42,652 nt of DNA from Lachnospiraceae bacterium (GTDB lineage Bacteria > Bacillota > Clostridia > Lachnospirales > Lachnospiraceae): NCBI GenBank assembly GCA_017553035.1, contig JAFZNE010000004.1:1-42652 (forward strand), given 5' to 3'. Below, piece after piece: positions 33,256-42,652 of the stretch (position 1 is its first letter; each line of letters opens with the position of its first letter). Below the pieces are notes generated by a model. That model was not told where the DNA came from. It worked only from the letters and a program-made list of their open reading frames with translations, and did no database searches. Made by a program: the position numbers and the translations under genes.

Positions 33256-33747
33256 ATGATTTCGGAAAACGGAAGTGTACTGATCTGTATCGATGAGTAC
33301 AACGAGGGCGAGATGTCCGGAAGAATTTACAGCATGTCCGAGTCCGAACCGGAGCATTTTTCCAGCGCGATCAAGCTGGTTAAGCAGGTTGGCAGGATCA
33401 TTGACGAAGGCAACGGCCCCCAGTCAACTATGAAGGTCAGGAAATTCTTCAAGAACAAACAGGAAGAAGAAATCAAGAATAACCAGAATCAGACAGATAA
33501 AACTGTTGATAATAAAAAGGTTACTACAGCCAAGATTAATGCTCATGGTAAAGAGGCTACGTTCAGAGTCCGCATAATGTTCAGACAGAACGCATCCTGG
33601 CAGGGTATGGTATATTGGGCAGAGAAGAACCGTGAAGAGAATTTCAGAAGCGTATTGGAACTTCTGATGCTTATCGATAGTTCATTTGCTGAGAGTCAGG
33701 CCGCAAAGGGCGTCAACAAAGACGAACTTCACGCTGTTGGTATGTAA
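33256..33747 (+). CDS. Internally duplicated protein of unknown function
   Basis: A 163-residue soluble protein with a strong GGAGG 7 bases before the ATG. I find an internal repeat. Residues 8-50 and 104-143 both run as strand, G-x-[IV]-Y, ten residues, F-x-S, then an amphipathic helix ending in I-D. Equivalent positions are G22/G117, Y25/Y120 and F35/F130. The two halves are joined by a Lys/Asn/Gln-rich linker (about 60-95). I do not recognise a named domain; similar single-unit sequences are, to my memory, frequent in Lachnospiraceae without known function. It is flanked by terminators, so it is monocistronic. An ATTTTTTAGC-rich AT stretch before it presumably holds its promoter. Confidence 0.75.
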   Translation: MISENGSVLICIDEYNEGEMSGRIYSMSESEPEHFSSAIKLVKQVGRIIDEGNGPQSTMKVRKFFKNKQEEEIKNNQNQTDKTVDNKKVTTAKINAHGKEATFRVRIMFRQNASWQGMVYWAEKNREENFRSVLELLMLIDSSFAESQAAKGVNKDELHAVGM

Positions 33748-35233: not shown

Positions 35234-37993
35234 ATGGATTACAGCAGACAGGGCGTTAAGGAAAGGCAGAAAGACGTCCGTTCCACGACCTCGAGGTTAG
35301 CCTCGAAGTTCTGGATAATGGTCTTGAGAATATTGCTGATCGTTATCGTAGGTGTCGGGATTTCCGGCGTAATGGCTGTCGGAGGAGCTTTTGAGGGATT
35401 GATAGATACTGCGCCTACGGTTCAGCTTGCCAGACTGAATGACACGGGATTTTCATCAACATCCTATTACTCGGATGGTACGGTTGCGCAGGTATTTGCG
35501 GGAGCAGAAGCCAACCGTGTATATGCGACGATAGATGAAATACCGCTTATGGTCCAGCATTGCTTCGTTGCGATCGAGGATGAGCGTTTTTATGAGCACG
35601 GTGGTATCGATATCCGCGGAATCTTCCGTGCGGGTGTATCTGTTGCGAAAGAGGGCGAACTCGATTACGGTGCAAGTACGATCACCCAGCAGATCCTGAA
35701 GAACGTTATATTCGGCGGCGGTAAAGAGAACAATTACCTTGCGAAGATCAAGAGAAAGGTACAGGAACAGTATCTGGCTATCCAGGTCGAGAGTGTACTG
35801 AGCAAGGATCAGATACTCGAGTATTATCTCAATTATATCAACCTGGGTAACGGTAATTACGGTATCAAGACCGCGGCTGAAGGTTACTTCGGCAAGGAAC
35901 TTTCGGAACTTACGCTGTCGGAAGCGGCTGTTCTTGCGCCTATAGCGCATTCTCCCACATTCAGGAATCCGATCACCCACCCTGCCGACAATGCCGAGCG
36001 TAGGCAGGCCTGCCTTGACAAGATGCTCGAGCTTGGCTGGTGTACGCAGGCAGAATATGATGAAGCCGTAGCAGATGACGTTTATACACGTATAGCGGCA
36101 TACAACGATGAACGTAAAGGTGTAACGATCACTACATTCTCGTATTTTACGGATGAGCTCGTGGAGCAGGTTCTCGAGGATTTCCAGAAAGAGCTCGGAT
36201 ACACTGCGGAACAGGCTCAGAATCTGCTGTATTACGGCGGTATAAGCATTTATACGACCCAGGACAAGCAGGTTCAGGACATTCTTGATAAGTATTATAC
36301 AAATGAAGAGAATTTCCCGGCATTTGGATTCACAAGCTCTACAGGTTCATGTTACGAGCTTTCATATGCGTTATCGGTATTTGATGCCGACGGGAATGCA
36401 ACGCATTACCAGCGCAGCGACCTTCTGAAGTACTATGAAGATTATGTTGACTCGCAGGGACTGTATTATCATGAAAATGGCGGCAAGAAGGGCATCAGCG
36501 AGCTGCTGCTTTCCGAGGAGGACATCAACGCAAAGATCGATGAATTCCGTGCGGCCAAAACAAATAATGAACAGCTGAAGTTTATAGAGAGTAAGCAGCT
36601 GACCCCCCAGCCTCAGTCATCATTCAGTATCATCGAGCAGTCAACCGGTAAGGTTGTGGCCGTATACGGCGGCAGAGGCGAGAAAAAGGGTTCCCTGACG
36701 CTTAACAGAGCTACCAATACAGTTCGTCAGGTAGGATCAACCTTTAAGGTGCTGGCATCTTTCCTGCCTGCGATCGACGGAGCCGGACTTACACTTGCTT
36801 CGGTCCAGGATGATATCCAGTATTTTTATCCGGGAACCGGCAAGGAAGTTATCAACTGGTACGGTTCGGGCTTCAGAGGCCTGCAGTCGATCAGGACCGG
36901 TATTTATAACTCTTTGAATATTGTAGCGGTCAAGACGCTTGAACAGATCGGCGCACCGCTCGGCTTTGAATATCTTCAGAAACTTGGTTTCAGTACATTG
37001 GTCAAAAATGAAGTGGGAGAAGACGGAACGGTGTATTCGGATGTAGGTCTTCCTCTTGCTCTGGGCGGTCTGACCAAGGGTGTTACAAACCTCGAGCTTA
37101 CCGCTGCATATGCTTCGATCGCGAACGGCGGAATCTACAACAAACCGCTGTATTATACAAAGATACTTGACAGCGACGGCAATGTGATCCTCGAGAAGAG
37201 CACCGAATCCAAGCAGGTCATGAAGACCTCAACGGCATGGCTGCTTACGAGTGCCATGCTTGATACAACGACTATAGGTACCGCGTCCCGTCTTTCATTC
37301 AAGAATTACAAGATGCCTGTAGCAGGTAAGACCGGAACGGCATCCAAGGACTCGGACCTATGGTTTGTCGGATATACTCCGTATTATACTGCATCGGTAT
37401 GGACGGGATACGATCATGCTTTCGACCAGAAGAACAAGAATTATCATCAGGAAATCTGGCGGAAGGTAATGGAAGAGATCCACGAGACAAAACAGCTGCC
37501 TTATGCAACATTTGAAAAACCCGATTCGATCGTACAGGCCCAGATATGTACAAAATGCGGCAATCTTGCCGTGATAGGCCTGTGTGATGAAGCAGAAGGC
37601 GGTTCATGCGTCAAGACCGAGTATTTTGCAAAAGGAACCGTTCCTACCCAGAAATGTAACTGCCATATCCGTGTGGATGTGTGCAAGAAATCCAACAAGC
37701 CCGCAGGGCCCAATTGTCCCAAGAAAAAGGTTGTAAGCAAGGTACTCCTGATCAAGAACGAGTATTATAAGATCAATCCGAGGACGATGCAGCCTTACGA
37801 TCCGCCTGAGATCATAACCACCTGGGATACACCTTATATCTATCATCCGGATGAAATATGCGACAAGCATCTGCCCGATGGCGCATACATTGATGAGGAA
37901 GGCAATATCGTCTACGGCGATGAAGATGAGGAAGAAGGCGCAGGCGAGGGTGCAGGCGAAGGCGCAGGCGATGACGATACGGACGGAGAATGA
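35234..37993 (+). CDS. Class A penicillin-binding protein (transglycosylase/transpeptidase)
   Basis: The 919-residue PBP1a-type enzyme polymerises and cross-links peptidoglycan at the membrane. A cytoplasmic tail and one membrane segment (about 27-50) precede the GT51 transglycosylase domain with the catalytic E115 in IEDERFYEHGGIDIRG and YGASTITQQILKN. The transpeptidase domain has the three motifs STFK (S502-K505), SLN (560-562) and KTG (699-701). After it comes a cysteine-rich segment (CTKCG, KCNCH, VCKK) and an acidic Gly/Ala/Glu tail encoded by 12-base repeats. GGAGG lies 8 bases before the ATG. A small membrane protein gene follows 80 bases on. Confidence 0.95.
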   Translation: MDYSRQGVKERQKDVRSTTSRLASKFWIMVLRILLIVIVGVGISGVMAVGGAFEGLIDTAPTVQLARLNDTGFSSTSYYSDGTVAQVFAGAEANRVYATIDEIPLMVQHCFVAIEDERFYEHGGIDIRGIFRAGVSVAKEGELDYGASTITQQILKNVIFGGGKENNYLAKIKRKVQEQYLAIQVESVLSKDQILEYYLNYINLGNGNYGIKTAAEGYFGKELSELTLSEAAVLAPIAHSPTFRNPITHPADNAERRQACLDKMLELGWCTQAEYDEAVADDVYTRIAAYNDERKGVTITTFSYFTDELVEQVLEDFQKELGYTAEQAQNLLYYGGISIYTTQDKQVQDILDKYYTNEENFPAFGFTSSTGSCYELSYALSVFDADGNATHYQRSDLLKYYEDYVDSQGLYYHENGGKKGISELLLSEEDINAKIDEFRAAKTNNEQLKFIESKQLTPQPQSSFSIIEQSTGKVVAVYGGRGEKKGSLTLNRATNTVRQVGSTFKVLASFLPAIDGAGLTLASVQDDIQYFYPGTGKEVINWYGSGFRGLQSIRTGIYNSLNIVAVKTLEQIGAPLGFEYLQKLGFSTLVKNEVGEDGTVYSDVGLPLALGGLTKGVTNLELTAAYASIANGGIYNKPLYYTKILDSDGNVILEKSTESKQVMKTSTAWLLTSAMLDTTTIGTASRLSFKNYKMPVAGKTGTASKDSDLWFVGYTPYYTASVWTGYDHAFDQKNKNYHQEIWRKVMEEIHETKQLPYATFEKPDSIVQAQICTKCGNLAVIGLCDEAEGGSCVKTEYFAKGTVPTQKCNCHIRVDVCKKSNKPAGPNCPKKKVVSKVLLIKNEYYKINPRTMQPYDPPEIITTWDTPYIYHPDEICDKHLPDGAYIDEEGNIVYGDEDEEEGAGEGAGEGAGDDDTDGE
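37937..37972 (+). repeat. Three 12-bp repeats in the PBP tail
   Basis: Units GGCGCAGGCGAG, GGTGCAGGCGAA and GGCGCAGGCGAT encode GAGE-GAGE-GAGD just before the C-terminus. They are coding repeats with no sign of being mobile. Confidence 0.85.
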
Positions 37994-38073
37994 TAACAGG
38001 AGAATCAGCAGGAATAATAAACAGGAACAGGAAAGAACAGGTTTATCAGGGGTAAGAGAGAAGGAGGTTTACA

Positions 38074-38283
38074 ATGGCTGTTTATCTGAATGAAGAGGAA
38101 GAAGCAAGGCGCAAGGAAGAACTTGAGGAATATTCCCGCACCAAGCAGGAAGAGATCGATATCGAACGTATCAATTCAAGAGAGAAGCGCATGAAACAGG
38201 ACAGGATATTCCAGAAGATCCTGTTCCTCACATTCGCAGCGGTTCTGATCTTTCTTGTGATAAGCTGGTGGAGAGGGGTATGA
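38074..38283 (+). CDS. Small tail-anchored membrane protein
   Basis: A 69-residue protein with a very strong GAAGGAGG 7-8 bases before its ATG. The first about 45 residues are highly charged and helical (EEEEARRKEELEEYSRTKQEE), likely a coiled coil, and residues about 47-64 form one hydrophobic segment, so it is probably inserted by its C-terminus with the helix in the cytoplasm. It resembles small PBP- or divisome-associated proteins in layout only; I do not recognise a named family. It lies 80 bases after the PBP gene through a purine-rich spacer without a terminator, so cotranscription and a role in wall synthesis are plausible. A long hairpin follows. Confidence 0.75.
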   Translation: MAVYLNEEEEARRKEELEEYSRTKQEEIDIERINSREKRMKQDRIFQKILFLTFAAVLIFLVISWWRGV

Positions 38284-38321
38284 TCGATCCCTGAAAAAGT
38301 GATAATAAAATAGAAAAAATT

Positions 38322-38370
38322 AATCAGGATATAATTAGTTTGGAAAAAACCAATTAATTATATCCTGATT
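38322..38370. terminator. Long AT-rich hairpin between convergent genes
   Basis: Arms AATCAGGATATAATTA (38322-38337) and its exact complement (38355-38370) pair over 16 bases. TTGG and CCAA extend the stem inside, with an AAAAAA loop. The flanks are A- and T-rich on the two sides, so it can serve transcripts from both directions (the small tail-anchored gene and the regulator). Confidence 0.7.
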
Positions 38371-38395
38371 TAATGTTGTTCTAGGTATTGAAAAA

Positions 38396-39583
38396 TCAGA
38401 CTTTCGGGTCAAGAGGAAGCATCCTGTAACTCAATGTGATGTCCTTCTTAATATGCTTACGATAGAAGGAAGAGGAGATTCTCTTCATAACCATCTCTAT
38501 ATTTTCATAGGATGCCGAGGGGAGCAGAAGAACGTATTGCGATACGCTGTAACGGGAGTAAACATCTCCTTTTCTCAGGGTATCGTTCATCGCTTTGACC
38601 AGGTCGTCCATTGCCTTGTTCAGAGCTATGGAATTGACTGACGATGTAGCCGGAGTCAGGGTAATGAGCCCGAGATAGATCGAGTCGCCGCTGCGTGCGC
38701 AGGCTCTGGCTTCAAGCTGGTAAACATCCTTGAAAAATTCGTATTCGCAGGAGAATGCTCCCTGTGCTTCACCTTCTTCGGTCAGAGACTCTTTGATAAC
38801 GTTAAGGTCGGTCTCGAGAGCCTTGGTGGTCTTGATGATGGTACGATACAGGCTCTTCAGTTCCTTCGAAGGATTGATACCGAATTTGCGGTAGAATGTC
38901 TCGGTCACGGTACTGTAGGCTGCAAGTGCTTCGGCCTGATGTCCGGAACGATACAGGGCATCGATAAGATGGAAATACAGCTCCTCGTTGTGCTCTTCGA
39001 TGGCGATCGCATTTTCACAGACTGTAATGATATCCTCGTAATTCTGATCGTCGAGATAGCATTCTATAAGGGAGAATACGGCCTTGATGTACATGTTGTG
39101 ATAATATTCCGTGATCGGAACCAGCCAGTTCTCCTGGTTATTCTGCAGGAAATCACCCTTGTACAGATTCAAAGCTTCTTCGAGCAATGCGATGCGTCCG
39201 GCACCGGATTTACGCTTCTCGGCTCTTTTACACAGCTGTTCGAAAAGATCAACATCCGTCACGATGGCAAGGTTACGATTGACGTAATACTGTCCCTTCT
39301 TCAGAACGATCAGCTCATTGCCGTCATCGGTACCGAGCTCATCCAGAATCTTTCTTGAACGATGGAGCAGGACCTTAAGGGCGCCACCCGTAGTATCGGA
39401 AGTGCCTTCGGACCAAACCATGTTCATAAGATCATCCTGAGTCATCGTCTCATTGCGATGTGCGAACATGAATTCAATAAGGTTCCAGGGCTTATGAGAC
39501 CTGTTGTTCTTGTCGGAAATGACCTTATTCCCGTGCGTGATCGTAAAATCACCGAGCAATGTTACAAGATAATTATCATTCAT
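38396..39583 (-). CDS. SARP/BTAD-type transcriptional regulator with degenerate GGDEF-like C-terminal module
   Basis: A 395-residue protein with three parts. Residues about 1-100 form an OmpR-like winged helix (FMFAHRNETMTQDDLMNMVW, GGALKVLLHRSRKIL). Residues about 110-255 form a BTAD (bacterial transcriptional activator) helical-repeat domain ending in NPSKELKSLYRTIIK. Residues about 276-395 form a module that aligns with the C-terminus of the divergently encoded REC-HD-GYP-GGDEF protein. In this module the catalytic GGDEF is replaced by SVSQY (346-350), but RKGD (337-340) keeps the RxxD inhibitory-site position five residues upstream. I infer a transcription factor that may bind c-di-GMP there or pair with its neighbour. 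GAGGAG precedes the ATG. Confidence 0.88.
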   Translation of the reverse strand: MNDNYLVTLLGDFTITHGNKVISDKNNRSHKPWNLIEFMFAHRNETMTQDDLMNMVWSEGTSDTTGGALKVLLHRSRKILDELGTDDGNELIVLKKGQYYVNRNLAIVTDVDLFEQLCKRAEKRKSGAGRIALLEEALNLYKGDFLQNNQENWLVPITEYYHNMYIKAVFSLIECYLDDQNYEDIITVCENAIAIEEHNEELYFHLIDALYRSGHQAEALAAYSTVTETFYRKFGINPSKELKSLYRTIIKTTKALETDLNVIKESLTEEGEAQGAFSCEYEFFKDVYQLEARACARSGDSIYLGLITLTPATSSVNSIALNKAMDDLVKAMNDTLRKGDVYSRYSVSQYVLLLPSASYENIEMVMKRISSSFYRKHIKKDITLSYRMLPLDPKV

Positions 39584-39609
39584 AATAACACTCTCCTCAT
39601 TCTATACGC

Positions 39610-39638
39610 ATTATAAACAATTCCTTGTTTTTTGTCTA
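39610..39638 (-). promoter_or_regulatory. Predicted promoter of the SARP/BTAD regulator
   Basis: On the reverse strand TAGACA (39633-39638), 17-base spacer, perfect TATAAT (39610-39615), about 20 bases before a GAGGAG ribosome binding site and the ATG at 39583. Confidence 0.7.
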
Positions 39639-39735
39639 CAATAATTCTGATTTTTTCTTAGTCACAAACAATCTTTTTTATACTGTAAAAGCTTGTGGAA
39701 ATGATCCGGGATCCGGTCGTAAAATCTATCAAAAG

Positions 39736-39764
39736 TTGACAAATCGTGGATTTTGTGATAAAAT
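39736..39764 (+). promoter_or_regulatory. Predicted promoter of the REC-HD-GYP-GGDEF gene
   Basis: Perfect TTGACA (39736-39741), 17-base spacer, TAAAAT (39759-39764). The leader is about 70 bases, and the ATG at 39840 has only a weak GGGG about 11 bases upstream. Confidence 0.72.
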
Positions 39765-39839
39765 TTTTTGCGATTCTAACAATCGTTTTTTGCGGACTTT
39801 ATTAATTGGATTGGTTTTTGATACGGGGTATTTAGTGCG

Positions 39840-41915
39840 ATGAAGAAGATACTGGTTGTTGACGATAACAGCGTAAGCCTGTCATTGGCCAAAAGTATGC
39901 TGTCTGATCTGTATTCTGTCTATGCGGTCCTGTCCGGAGAGCAGGCTCTGCAGTTCCTTGAAAAGAAGGAGTGCGACCTGATACTCCTCGATCTTAACAT
40001 GTCTGACATGTCCGGTTATGAGACACTGAGAGCCATAAGGGACAATGATGCCACCAAGGACGTGCCGATCATTTTCCTTACCGCGGACAGCGATCCCGAG
40101 ACGGAGAAGAAGTGCTTCGAAATGGGAGCATACGATTTTATCGTCAAGCCTTTCCAGAAAGCGACCCTGCGCAGCCGTGTAAGCAGAACATTGGAGCTGC
40201 TCGACCTCAAGAAGAACCTTGAGAGCCAGATAATAGAGAAGACCAAGGAGATCGCCAGGATCTCGCTGAAATCGATGATGATGATCGCCAATACTGTCGA
40301 CAAGAAGGATCCGCTTGCGTCAAAACACTCCACGAACGTCGCATGGTTTGCGGTAGAGATCGCAAAACGCATGGGATGGTCCGGAGATGATCTTTACAAT
40401 CTTCAGAATCTTGCTCTTATACATGATATAGGCAATATCGGAGTTCCCGATTCGATCATAAGAAAGAAGGGACCGCTGACTCAGAGTGAATACGAGACTC
40501 TTAAGCACCATACCGATTACGGCAAGAGCATACTTCAGGATATGACAGTCATCAGGAAAGCCGCAGAGGTTGCCCAGACCCACCATGAAAGATATGACGG
40601 TAAGGGATATCCGAACGGTCTGTCCGGTGAAGATATTCCCATAGAGGCACGAATCATCGCCATTGCGGATGCTTTTGATTCCATGACATCGGATCGTTCA
40701 TTCAGGAAAAAACTCGATAAGGAAACGATCCTTCATCAGTTCGAAGAGGGAAAGGGAACACAGTTTGACCCTATGATGACCGAGATCGCGATATCGATGA
40801 TCAAGGAAGATAAACTTGAACACAAGGATATTGAGATCGAAAATGAGTCGGATATAGCAAGGGAGAGCAGCAAGCTTCTTCAGAAAGTGCTGTCCGAGTA
40901 TACAAAAGAGGTTCGTACCGAAGCGGCCAAGGATCCTCTGACAGGATTATGGAACAGGAGCTATACCGTCGATTATATCAATGAGTATTTCAAGGATAAA
41001 CGTCATGGCGGATGCCTGTTCATGATCGATATGGATAACTTCAAGCGTATAAACGATACTTACGGACACATCGTCGGTGACAGTGTAATAGTAAGACTCG
41101 GCGAAACATTGAGGACGGTTGTCCGTGAAGACGACGTAATATGCCGCATCGGCGGAGATGAATTCATATTATTCTTCAAAGGCAATTCCAGCAGAGCTTT
41201 TGCTTCATCCAAAGCTGAAGAGATAATCCTTACGCTTGACAAGAATTTCAGTGTAGAAGGAGATGAAGGCTCGGGGCATATTTCGATCTCCATAGGTATC
41301 GCTCTTTCTCCTGTGGACGGTAACGACTTTAACACATTATACAGCAGAGCCGACAAAGCCCTGTATTATGTGAAGAAGAACGGCAAGCACAATTATCATT
41401 TTTACAGTGATGAGAATGAAATATCCGCGCACAAGAAGAGCTCCAATATCGATATCGCTTACCTGCGCCGCTTCTTGAGAGAACAGAATAACAATCCCGG
41501 TGTATTCCAGGTGGAATATGAAAGCTTCAAGAAGATATACCGTTTCCTGCTCAGGACCCAGAAACGTACAAGGCAGCCGGTTCTGATACTGCTCATTACG
41601 ATTTATTCAAATGACGGAGAGAATGAGACTCCGGATAATGAGATCCTCGACAGGGCATTCCCGAGGCTCAAGAAGGCCGTTTCTTCGACTATCAGAAGCA
41701 ATGACATAGGAACAACCTACAGCTCGAGCCAGTACATCGCGTTGCTGGTGGATTCGACACCGGCCAACGGTTATATCATAGCCGAGCGGATCCGCAAGAC
41801 ATTCGAAGAGGGCGAGCCGATAGATTGTCGTCTTGAATACGATATTGACGAGATATCACTTGACGAATATATTCTCGCAGAAGAGCAAAAAGATACCGAT
41901 GATCATGAAGAATGA
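39840..41915 (+). CDS. REC-HD-GYP-GGDEF c-di-GMP enzyme with extra degenerate GGDEF-like C-terminus
   Basis: The 691-residue protein has four parts. A receiver domain spans 1-120, with D8, D9, phosphoacceptor D51, T81 and K103. An HD-GYP phosphodiesterase domain spans about 145-325, with HDIG at 195-198 and HHERYDGKGYP at 248-258. A GGDEF diguanylate cyclase domain spans about 365-525, with GGDEF at 438-442 and the I-site R429-D432. A C-terminal module (555-691) matches that of the neighbouring SARP-type regulator, with SSSQY at 628-632 and RSND at 619-622. The receiver would control the balance of c-di-GMP making and breaking. A partner histidine kinase is not in the window. The start ATG has a weak ribosome binding site. 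The gene ends 13 bases before the convergent selD. Confidence 0.93.
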   Translation: MKKILVVDDNSVSLSLAKSMLSDLYSVYAVLSGEQALQFLEKKECDLILLDLNMSDMSGYETLRAIRDNDATKDVPIIFLTADSDPETEKKCFEMGAYDFIVKPFQKATLRSRVSRTLELLDLKKNLESQIIEKTKEIARISLKSMMMIANTVDKKDPLASKHSTNVAWFAVEIAKRMGWSGDDLYNLQNLALIHDIGNIGVPDSIIRKKGPLTQSEYETLKHHTDYGKSILQDMTVIRKAAEVAQTHHERYDGKGYPNGLSGEDIPIEARIIAIADAFDSMTSDRSFRKKLDKETILHQFEEGKGTQFDPMMTEIAISMIKEDKLEHKDIEIENESDIARESSKLLQKVLSEYTKEVRTEAAKDPLTGLWNRSYTVDYINEYFKDKRHGGCLFMIDMDNFKRINDTYGHIVGDSVIVRLGETLRTVVREDDVICRIGGDEFILFFKGNSSRAFASSKAEEIILTLDKNFSVEGDEGSGHISISIGIALSPVDGNDFNTLYSRADKALYYVKKNGKHNYHFYSDENEISAHKKSSNIDIAYLRRFLREQNNNPGVFQVEYESFKKIYRFLLRTQKRTRQPVLILLITIYSNDGENETPDNEILDRAFPRLKKAVSSTIRSNDIGTTYSSSQYIALLVDSTPANGYIIAERIRKTFEEGEPIDCRLEYDIDEISLDEYILAEEQKDTDDHEE

Positions 41916-41928
41916 TCACCGGTCGCGT

Positions 41929-42652
41929 TTACAAAACAATAATGTCTTTATCAGATGCCGCGGTCACATATCCGATGATCGCGGCATCTGTGTGCACAAG
42001 AAGATCTTCAAGAAGCTTGTGGGCATCTTTTTCGGCTACACTGATCAGTAAACCGCCAGAAGTCTGGGGATCGAACAGGATATCAAGCATTGCACGGCTG
42101 ACATTTTCACCCGCCGAGTAATGATCGCCCACATAATCCCTGTTCTTATATGCTCCGTCGGGTATGAAACCCATTTCGGCCATCTCATATGCCGCAGTAT
42201 GATATTTGACGGAGGAAGTATCGATGTTGATGGTTACTCCGCTCGAATGGGACATTTCAAAGGCATGACCCATCAGACCGAAACCGGTGACATCGGTGCA
42301 GGAATGGACGTCGTAAGCTATCATGTTATTGCGTGATTGCTTGTTCAGGGTCGCCATAAAGTTAATTACAGATTTAAGTTCTTCGGAACCAATCATGCCT
42401 GCTTTTGCCGCCGTAGTAATGATTCCGGCTCCGAGAGGTTTGGTCAGGATCAAAACATCACCGATCTTTGATGAAGAATTAGTTAAAAGCTGATTTAATT
42501 TAACAAAGCCGGTAACACTGAGTCCGTATTTCGGTGATTCGTCGTTGATCGTATGTCCGCCGCAGATTATCGCTCCGGCTTCACAGGCTTTATCATAGCC
42601 GCCCCGAAGGATCGAACGTATGGAATCTTCGGTCATGCTTTTTGTGACGGTC
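41929..42652 (-). CDS. selD: Selenide, water dikinase, N-terminus cut by window edge
   Basis: The visible 240 or so residues (open to base 42652) are the C-terminal two thirds of SelD, which makes selenophosphate from selenide and ATP. Diagnostic stretches are LRGGYDKACEAGAIICGGHTI, PKYGLSVTGFV, ILTKPLGAGII, CTDVTGFGLMGHAFEM and the end FDPQTSGGLLISV. An internal ATG at 42636 is not the start, since the reading frame continues upstream with conserved sequence. The catalytic Cys/Sec near the N-terminus is outside. It implies the organism makes selenoproteins or 2-selenouridine tRNA, or uses selenium as a cofactor. No selA or selB is in the window. It converges with the HD-GYP gene. Confidence 0.93.
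   Translation of the reverse strand, partial: TVTKSMTEDSIRSILRGGYDKACEAGAIICGGHTINDESPKYGLSVTGFVKLNQLLTNSSSKIGDVLILTKPLGAGIITTAAKAGMIGSEELKSVINFMATLNKQSRNNMIAYDVHSCTDVTGFGLMGHAFEMSHSSGVTINIDTSSVKYHTAAYEMAEMGFIPDGAYKNRDYVGDHYSAGENVSRAMLDILFDPQTSGGLLISVAEKDAHKLLEDLLVHTDAAIIGYVTAASDKDIIVL

Follow-up and report, generated by a model that had tools for sequence, protein, structure and literature searches.

The DNA analysed here, referred to as the window, is the complete contig JAFZNE010000004.1 (42,652 nucleotides) of a 2.5-Mb Lachnospiraceae draft genome in 145 contigs. It encodes a 395-amino-acid (aa) regulator (38396..39583, minus strand) in which an OmpR-type winged helix and a BTAD domain (residues 1-252) are followed by a degenerate GGDEF module (residues 256-395; 38399..38818, minus strand). 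Judged by its sequence and modelled structure, this module is a GGDEF domain without catalytic activity, truncated at its C-terminal end, in which the product-inhibition site is preserved. We consider it probable (roughly 0.8) that the regulator binds DNA as a protein of the SARP/BTAD type and that clamping of its dead GGDEF module by cyclic di-GMP (c-di-GMP) switches DNA binding or activation. Our analysis establishes the domain make-up, the predicted fold, the loss of the catalytic signature, the near-invariance of the site residues and the presence of GGDEF proteins in 30 of 30 sampled genomes that carry the fusion. As the initial annotation of this locus had proposed, a c-di-GMP-responsive transcription factor is the best reading of the regulator, given the predicted fold of its module together with the conservation of R337 and D340.

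The GGDEF-derived module and its product-inhibition site

The regulator shows the succession that characterises SARP/BTAD proteins, an OmpR-type winged helix and then BTAD, both exceeding the Pfam cut-offs; its GGDEF match (residues 326-376) is sub-threshold. A related module ends the product of the divergent gene 256 bp away, a 691-aa enzyme (39840..41915, plus strand) in which Pfam and motifs identify REC, HD-GYP, an intact GGDEF domain and then the degenerate module (residues ~534-680; 41439..41879, plus strand), the last recognised by homology to the regulator module and by profile comparisons. BLASTP aligns regulator residues 254-373 to enzyme residues 533-655 with 36 of 123 positions identical (29%, E = 1e-13), and a profile-profile comparison of 70 regulator modules (out of 76 module stretches) with 27 enzyme modules gives a probability of 100 and E = 1e-43. 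The two open reading frames, their divergent layout and the homology of their C-terminal modules, all claimed from the sequence in the initial annotation, are thus borne out. Compared with ordinary GGDEF domains in hhalign, the regulator modules reach a probability of 94.9 (E 4e-8), and the profile of the 27 enzyme modules matches diguanylate cyclases in the PDB at 1.9e-7. For the regulator module, AlphaFold2 (AF2) combined with VIA-align and Foldseek predicts a GGDEF fold including the signature-bearing hairpin (341-346/349-354); a non-GGDEF fold was not obtained. The enzyme module can with moderate confidence be called a degenerate GGDEF domain, the link to ordinary GGDEF domains being made by profile.

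Neither module has the GG(D/E)EF signature of an active diguanylate cyclase. At the hairpin turn of the regulator the catalytic signature has given way to SVSQY (38534..38548, minus strand), and in the enzyme to SSSQY; the class consensus at this position is YSxxQY among regulator modules and YSSxQY among enzyme modules. These replacements had been correctly recognised before, as had an RxxD motif exactly five residues ahead of them in both proteins. In the regulator this primary inhibition-site motif is R337-K-G-D340 (38564..38575, minus strand), and in the enzyme module R619-S-N-D622 (41694..41705, plus strand). The product-inhibition site of PleD is described in the available part of PMC7288161 as R359, D362 and R390 of one domain plus R313 of the adjacent one. 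Both further arginines of such a site are present in both of our proteins, as R297 and R368 in the regulator and R576 and R650 in the enzyme. R368 (38480..38482, minus strand) matches PleD R390 by its spacing (+31), the series 337-340-368 being spaced as 359-362-390 in PleD, and R297 (38693..38695, minus strand) is the proposed counterpart of R313 from the adjacent protomer; HMMER aligns R297 to an arginine of the c-di-GMP-bound structure 3ign. The third arginine corresponds to PleD R390 and to R395 of PelD from Bacillus cereus, itself a degenerate GGDEF protein, in which alanine at each of the three equivalent positions rendered c-di-GMP binding undetectable, according to the portion of PMC7112168 at hand.

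Conservation of these residues was followed in relatives of the window, compared as numbered loci (L033 and so on). Our collection holds 76 distinct module-bearing regulators, whose 76 locus identifiers stand for 75 places (L038 and L049 are one); the nearest are from Lachnospiraceae metagenome-assembled genomes, with L033 at 90% identity. In the alignment of 75 of the 76 (L047, cut by its contig, was omitted), only D110, W153, C279, F284, R337 and D340 are invariant over 463 columns. R337 and D340 are therefore present in 75/75 regulators, and they recur in 71/71 further modules outside this alignment, a count from which two short matches and modules already in our other alignments (A2 or A3) were dropped. 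Arginine occupies the R297 position in 74/75 regulators and the R368 position in 73/75 (one has asparagine, and one row ends earlier), and each of the two is kept in 70/71 further modules. Q349, in the former hairpin, is kept in 72/75 regulators. Among the 27 enzyme modules, F33, R89, D92, Q101 and R120 (module numbering) are invariant, of which R89, D92 and R120 are the same site positions as R337, D340 and R368 of the regulator; the R297 position is arginine in 26/27. The earlier suggestion of a degenerate GGDEF domain with a preserved inhibition site is thus supported by the predicted fold of the regulator module and by the conservation of R337/D340 in orthologues.

This combination is uncommon in ordinary GGDEF domains. 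RxxD and the third arginine occur jointly in 73/75 regulator, 27/27 enzyme and 70/71 further modules, against 2/56 intact GGDEF domains from the compared loci and the window's own genome, where RxxD was found in 17 and the third arginine in 10. The control was counted by hidden Markov model (HMM) alignment, with the own genome represented by 30 of its 33 GGDEF places; 15 of 71 GGDEF domains were set aside for a signature that was not intact, and none of these has RxxD. For 170/172 modules (one truncated row excluded) against 2/56, Fisher's exact test gives 2e-47, a value that overstates independence because the sequences are related; the contrast stands without it.

Descent, distribution and neighbouring genes

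At a threshold of 1e-10, 107 of 299 family genomes match the regulator or its module, and at least 73 carry a near full-length regulator. At the level of the order, 98 of 294 genomes match the full profile somewhere, a figure that includes BTAD-only and module-only matches, and a number of BTAD matches span the BTAD half only. BTAD-module proteins from further families are among the best matches of the phylum-level search (most of loci L202-L230), where the total of module matches (258/348) is unusable as a count since the weak ones are probably ordinary GGDEF domains. Within the window's genus, where 7 of the 13 genomes searched have a BTAD match, all 11 BTAD places found carry the module, and so do 12 of 13 over the whole of that search. 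The initial annotation had considered such a domain unusual for SARP/BTAD factors, which does not hold in this lineage, although the association is not universal at the level of the order. In the same genome, a second BTAD-module regulator (L048, contig C125) is adjoined by a convergent gene for a PilZ-domain protein 7 bp away (L048:7278-7673, minus strand).

In a tree of 97 modules (145 columns only), one branch divides regulator from enzyme modules with support of 99/81. Recent local copying between the two modules was considered and rejected on this ground: they lie on opposite sides of that branch and belong to separate lineages, and nothing points to recent local duplication.

The genomes carrying the fusion also provide a test that the c-di-GMP reading could have failed. 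GGDEF proteins are present in 30/30 sampled fusion genomes and in 13/18 family genomes without a regulator match (Fisher 0.005); some of these 18 are incomplete, and one (G017) has an enzyme-type module. A wider comparison (18/30 genomes with GGDEF) is biased, as 12 of its genomes were chosen for having no match to the module profile, which also catches ordinary GGDEF domains. The window's own genome has 33 GGDEF places, several of them with degenerate signatures (YSDNF, SDDHF, GDVEF), and those lack RxxD.

The divergent enzyme had been described as a REC-HD-GYP-GGDEF protein with a degenerate GGDEF. The degenerate copy stands, as an extra C-terminal domain; that description can be refined by the intact GGDEF domain in addition to it (residues 362-517; 40923..41390, plus strand; PF00990, 148.5 bits for the whole protein). 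The signatures HDIGN at 195, HHERYDGKGYP at 248 and GGDEF at 438 are all present, and the enzyme could in principle both make and destroy c-di-GMP. Its intact GGDEF domain has an RxxD of its own (REDD, residues 429-432), and an intact GGDEF domain also accompanies the module in 27/27 module-bearing enzymes of our first enzyme set. The extra module is most likely a feedback or targeting site.

As to the pair, the neighbour relationship recurs within the genus, where the enzyme adjoins 6 of 11 BTAD places: three divergently, by the REC-HD-GYP head (the window included), and three convergently, by the GGDEF-module tail. Among the remaining five, one starts 206 bases from the contig end and four show no enzyme in the short stretches covered. 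Over all regulator loci the relationship is not general, with an adjacent module-bearing enzyme at 6/76 (the window, L033, L035, L037, L058 and L107), besides L036, where the contig ends first. Orientation varies as well: near relatives of the window have the pair divergent, L058 and L162-L164 have it convergent, and in L107 the two genes follow each other on one strand. With most of the 76 loci lacking an enzyme neighbour, the pair appears to be a local solution. The idea that c-di-GMP genes are the usual neighbours of these regulators was likewise rejected as a general rule, only 10/76 loci having one within ~350 bp, five of which are the window and its near relatives. One locus encodes a single 693-aa chain REC-GGDEF-winged helix/BTAD-degenerate GGDEF module (L234:4135-6216, plus strand), in which the GGDEF part keeps GGEEF without RxxD and the module keeps the inhibition site; by its sequence, synthesis and putative sensing of c-di-GMP would be joined in one polypeptide.

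Between the two genes, each direction has a sigma-A-like promoter matching 11 of 12 consensus positions: TTGACA-17-TAAAAT for the enzyme (39736..39764, plus strand) and TAGACA-17-TATAAT for the regulator (39610..39638, minus strand). In the latter, the whole -10 hexamer and all but one of the six -35 positions are unchanged across the window and five relatives; the former is present, by eye in the alignment, in L033 and L034 and not in L035-L037. With near-consensus promoters in both directions, nothing indicates that transcription of either gene depends on the regulator. The self-contained circuit that had been suggested from the divergent layout is accordingly weakened, by these promoters, by the rarity of the adjacent enzyme and by its varying orientation. 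No c-di-GMP riboswitch was found in positions 37900-42652 of the window, where Rfam gave no notable match and one chance match at E 0.91.

A commoner neighbour is a protein family of ~145 aa, here called SM, which is undescribed, carries the motif ...RQNASWQG...FRSVLELL and often lies just downstream of a BTAD-module regulator. It has no convincing match in Pfam, NCBIfam or the PDB. SM occurs at 39/76 regulator loci (within 700 bp in 33) and at 0/20 enzyme-only loci; it is found in 58 of 299 family genomes, 54 of which also have a near full-length regulator (at least 73/299 overall; hypergeometric 4e-38). The window's member, of 163 aa (33256..33747, plus strand), matches the SM profile, has no Pfam match at 0.01 and lies 4.6 kb from the regulator gene. 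Other members are at L070:5774-6208, L065:6963-7397 and L246:5825-6301, and tandem duplicates were seen in L050, L055 and L052. The scan of small neighbours also took in several non-SM proteins with family matches of their own; neighbour genes were called by a simple longest-open-reading-frame rule, which yields a handful of erroneous negative distances.

At 16/76 regulator loci and 0/20 enzyme-only loci there are large proteins carrying VWA and/or SpaA domains, by profiles seeded from five of the same loci; these profiles find none in the window. Giant proteins that begin with a secretion-signal-like stretch and carry VWA, SpaA or DUF7601/7604 domains are encoded beside the regulators (L065:8928-14993, L070:1355-5560, L077:886-5715, L103:7988-12868 and L246:6654-11237) and are possible output genes; in L246 the gene order is regulator, SM, adhesin. 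Screening by hydrophobicity for large secreted proteins nearby gives 22/76 against 0/20 within 1.5 kb and 25 against 1 within 5 kb; the screen also counts non-adhesins such as the window's penicillin-binding-type gene, and we prefer the profile count. In L233 (5281-7098, minus strand), BTAD, module and SM share one 605-aa frame, followed by a 1541-aa SpaA protein. This frame may be a real fusion, a lost stop or an assembly error; its linker resembles translated intergenic DNA, and we give it little weight.

Proposed switch and alternative readings

Based on these data, we propose that c-di-GMP, probably as an intercalated dimer as in PleD, would be bound by R337, D340 and R368 in one module and by R297 in its partner, which would clamp the pair together. 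The clamping would fix how the winged helices are placed relative to each other and thereby switch DNA binding or activation. Activation in the c-di-GMP-bound state is favoured by the adhesin neighbours and by the general logic of c-di-GMP signalling. In the window's clade, the module of the neighbouring enzyme would probably be its own feedback site, and the enzyme may be a local source or sink of c-di-GMP; across the family at large, surface adhesins and the small partner protein would be the likely outputs. More broadly, it is conceivable, at slightly less than even odds, that c-di-GMP-clamped activators of the SARP type, derived by fusion of BTAD factors with a dead GGDEF domain reduced to its inhibition site, are a principal protein link between c-di-GMP and gene transcription among Lachnospiraceae and related Clostridia, acting with the ~145-aa partner and commonly driving giant VWA/SpaA adhesins, with the enzyme-borne module closing the turnover loop.

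A number of points weigh against a c-di-GMP-clamped regulator. According to the available text of PMC7288161, RxxD with a third positive residue is conserved in GGDEF members, and the conservation of RxxD could stem from a structural salt bridge. The correspondence of R297 to PleD R313 is drawn from alignment, and there are exceptions among the modules, the diverged L059 lacking both R297 and R368 and L228 having lysine in place of the third arginine. The hhalign link of the enzyme modules to ordinary GGDEF domains is moderate (probability 73.9, E 3e-5). About 66 of the 76 loci have no c-di-GMP enzyme within ~350 bp (some contigs end early), and both promoters of the window's pair look able to work unaided. 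SARP-type tandem repeats next to a -35 were not found between the two genes, where one 13-nt repeat was seen, its copies 111 bases apart; targets may lie elsewhere. Finally, binding, dimerisation and DNA binding of the regulator are here predictions from sequence and modelled fold.

The module could instead be a ligand-free dimerisation domain, in which the conserved arginines and aspartate form structural or inter-protomer salt bridges with c-di-GMP uninvolved. Such a role would fit the dimeric DNA binding of BTAD factors, the loss of the catalytic signature and the conservation of C279 and F284 among regulators, which equals that of RxxD. We nevertheless find it unlikely, since the conserved set takes in a known ligand site with two arginines distant in sequence, since so few intact GGDEF domains (the 2/56 above) have RxxD with the third arginine, and since GGDEF proteins are kept in every sampled fusion genome and in fewer of the comparison genomes. 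Recognition of another nucleotide, such as cyclic GMP-AMP (cGAMP) or (p)ppGpp, through an altered site is more improbable still: a conserved S-x-x-Q has reshaped what was once the catalytic hairpin, and structures of PleD with (p)ppGpp exist, judging by their titles, but in proteins that have been characterised RxxD with the third arginine forms the site of inhibition by c-di-GMP.

Compatible with c-di-GMP sensing by the regulator, and doubtful rather than improbable, is a direct pairing of the regulator and enzyme modules, with or without a c-di-GMP bridge, which would amount to control by contact in a local trigger-enzyme circuit. The adjacency of the genes in the window and five other loci, the head or tail of the enzyme beside 6/11 BTAD places of the genus, the REC-GGDEF-BTAD-module fusion of L234 and the fact that the PleD site works by bridging two domains (PMC7288161, as far as available) all speak for it. 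Most regulator loci, however, lack such a neighbour, the two module types form two lineages (99/81), and the orientation of the layout is not conserved.

Comparison with known c-di-GMP systems

In the open-access literature, surveyed partly by title, we found no description of a BTAD-GGDEF fusion or of a c-di-GMP-binding BTAD/SARP factor, Firmicutes and Clostridia included, and the fusion is undescribed as far as that literature shows. BTAD and GGDEF occur in different proteins in the accessible part of PMC1262709, neither word appears in the main text of PMC2447327, and the word SARP is absent from the 2025 effector review PMC12564702. The only work found that joins Lachnospiraceae, c-di-GMP, GGDEF and HD-GYP concerns, as far as it could be accessed, autoinducer-2 (AI-2). 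Lachnospiraceae can hold many c-di-GMP enzymes, as the 33 GGDEF places of this genome illustrate, and the family described here is a candidate protein sensor with a clear mutational prediction and a hint of a surface-adhesion output.

The closest parallels are PelD and PopA, in which, as described in the available parts of PMC7112168 and PMC12564702, a dead GGDEF domain has kept its RxxD, as here. In PelD the third arginine lies 32-35 residues past the first (PMC7112168, in part), and the present modules have a third arginine too. By sequence, our modules have the features of receptors of this type, with RxxD in 75/75, 27/27 and 71/71 and the third arginine in 73/75, 27/27 and 70/71 regulator, enzyme and further modules, respectively. 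PelD acts on exopolysaccharide synthesis and PopA on the localisation and degradation of CtrA, and neither is DNA-binding as described in those portions of the two papers. The present module, in contrast, follows a winged helix and BTAD in one fused protein and is without the C-terminal portion of a GGDEF domain.

Other proteins with BTAD continue differently. EmbR (structure 2fez) goes on with FHA and has no GGDEF-derived domain. In AfsR (structure 8k60), BTAD is followed by NB-ARC and TPR, again without a GGDEF-derived domain (PMC1262709, in part). Known c-di-GMP transcription factors show c-di-GMP-dependent DNA binding, the function expected here, and bind the ligand through REC, PilZ, Gyrl-like, HTH, TetR-type, RHH or unnamed domains, none of them GGDEF-derived in the accessible part of the table in PMC12564702. 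If our reading is right, a GGDEF-derived binding domain would be added to this repertoire, and a dead enzyme would have found new use as the ligand-binding part of a transcription factor. The architecture of PdeL is HTH plus EAL. PdeL-type trigger enzymes, named in PMC12564702, resemble the regulator in fusing a c-di-GMP enzyme domain to a DNA-binding domain, but theirs is an EAL phosphodiesterase with activity, whereas here it is a dead GGDEF. In Clostridioides difficile, according to the partial sources available, c-di-GMP signalling involves riboswitches and sortase-anchored surface proteins, and control of surface proteins by c-di-GMP in Clostridia is the output likewise proposed here; the sensor is RNA in that organism, whereas we propose a protein.

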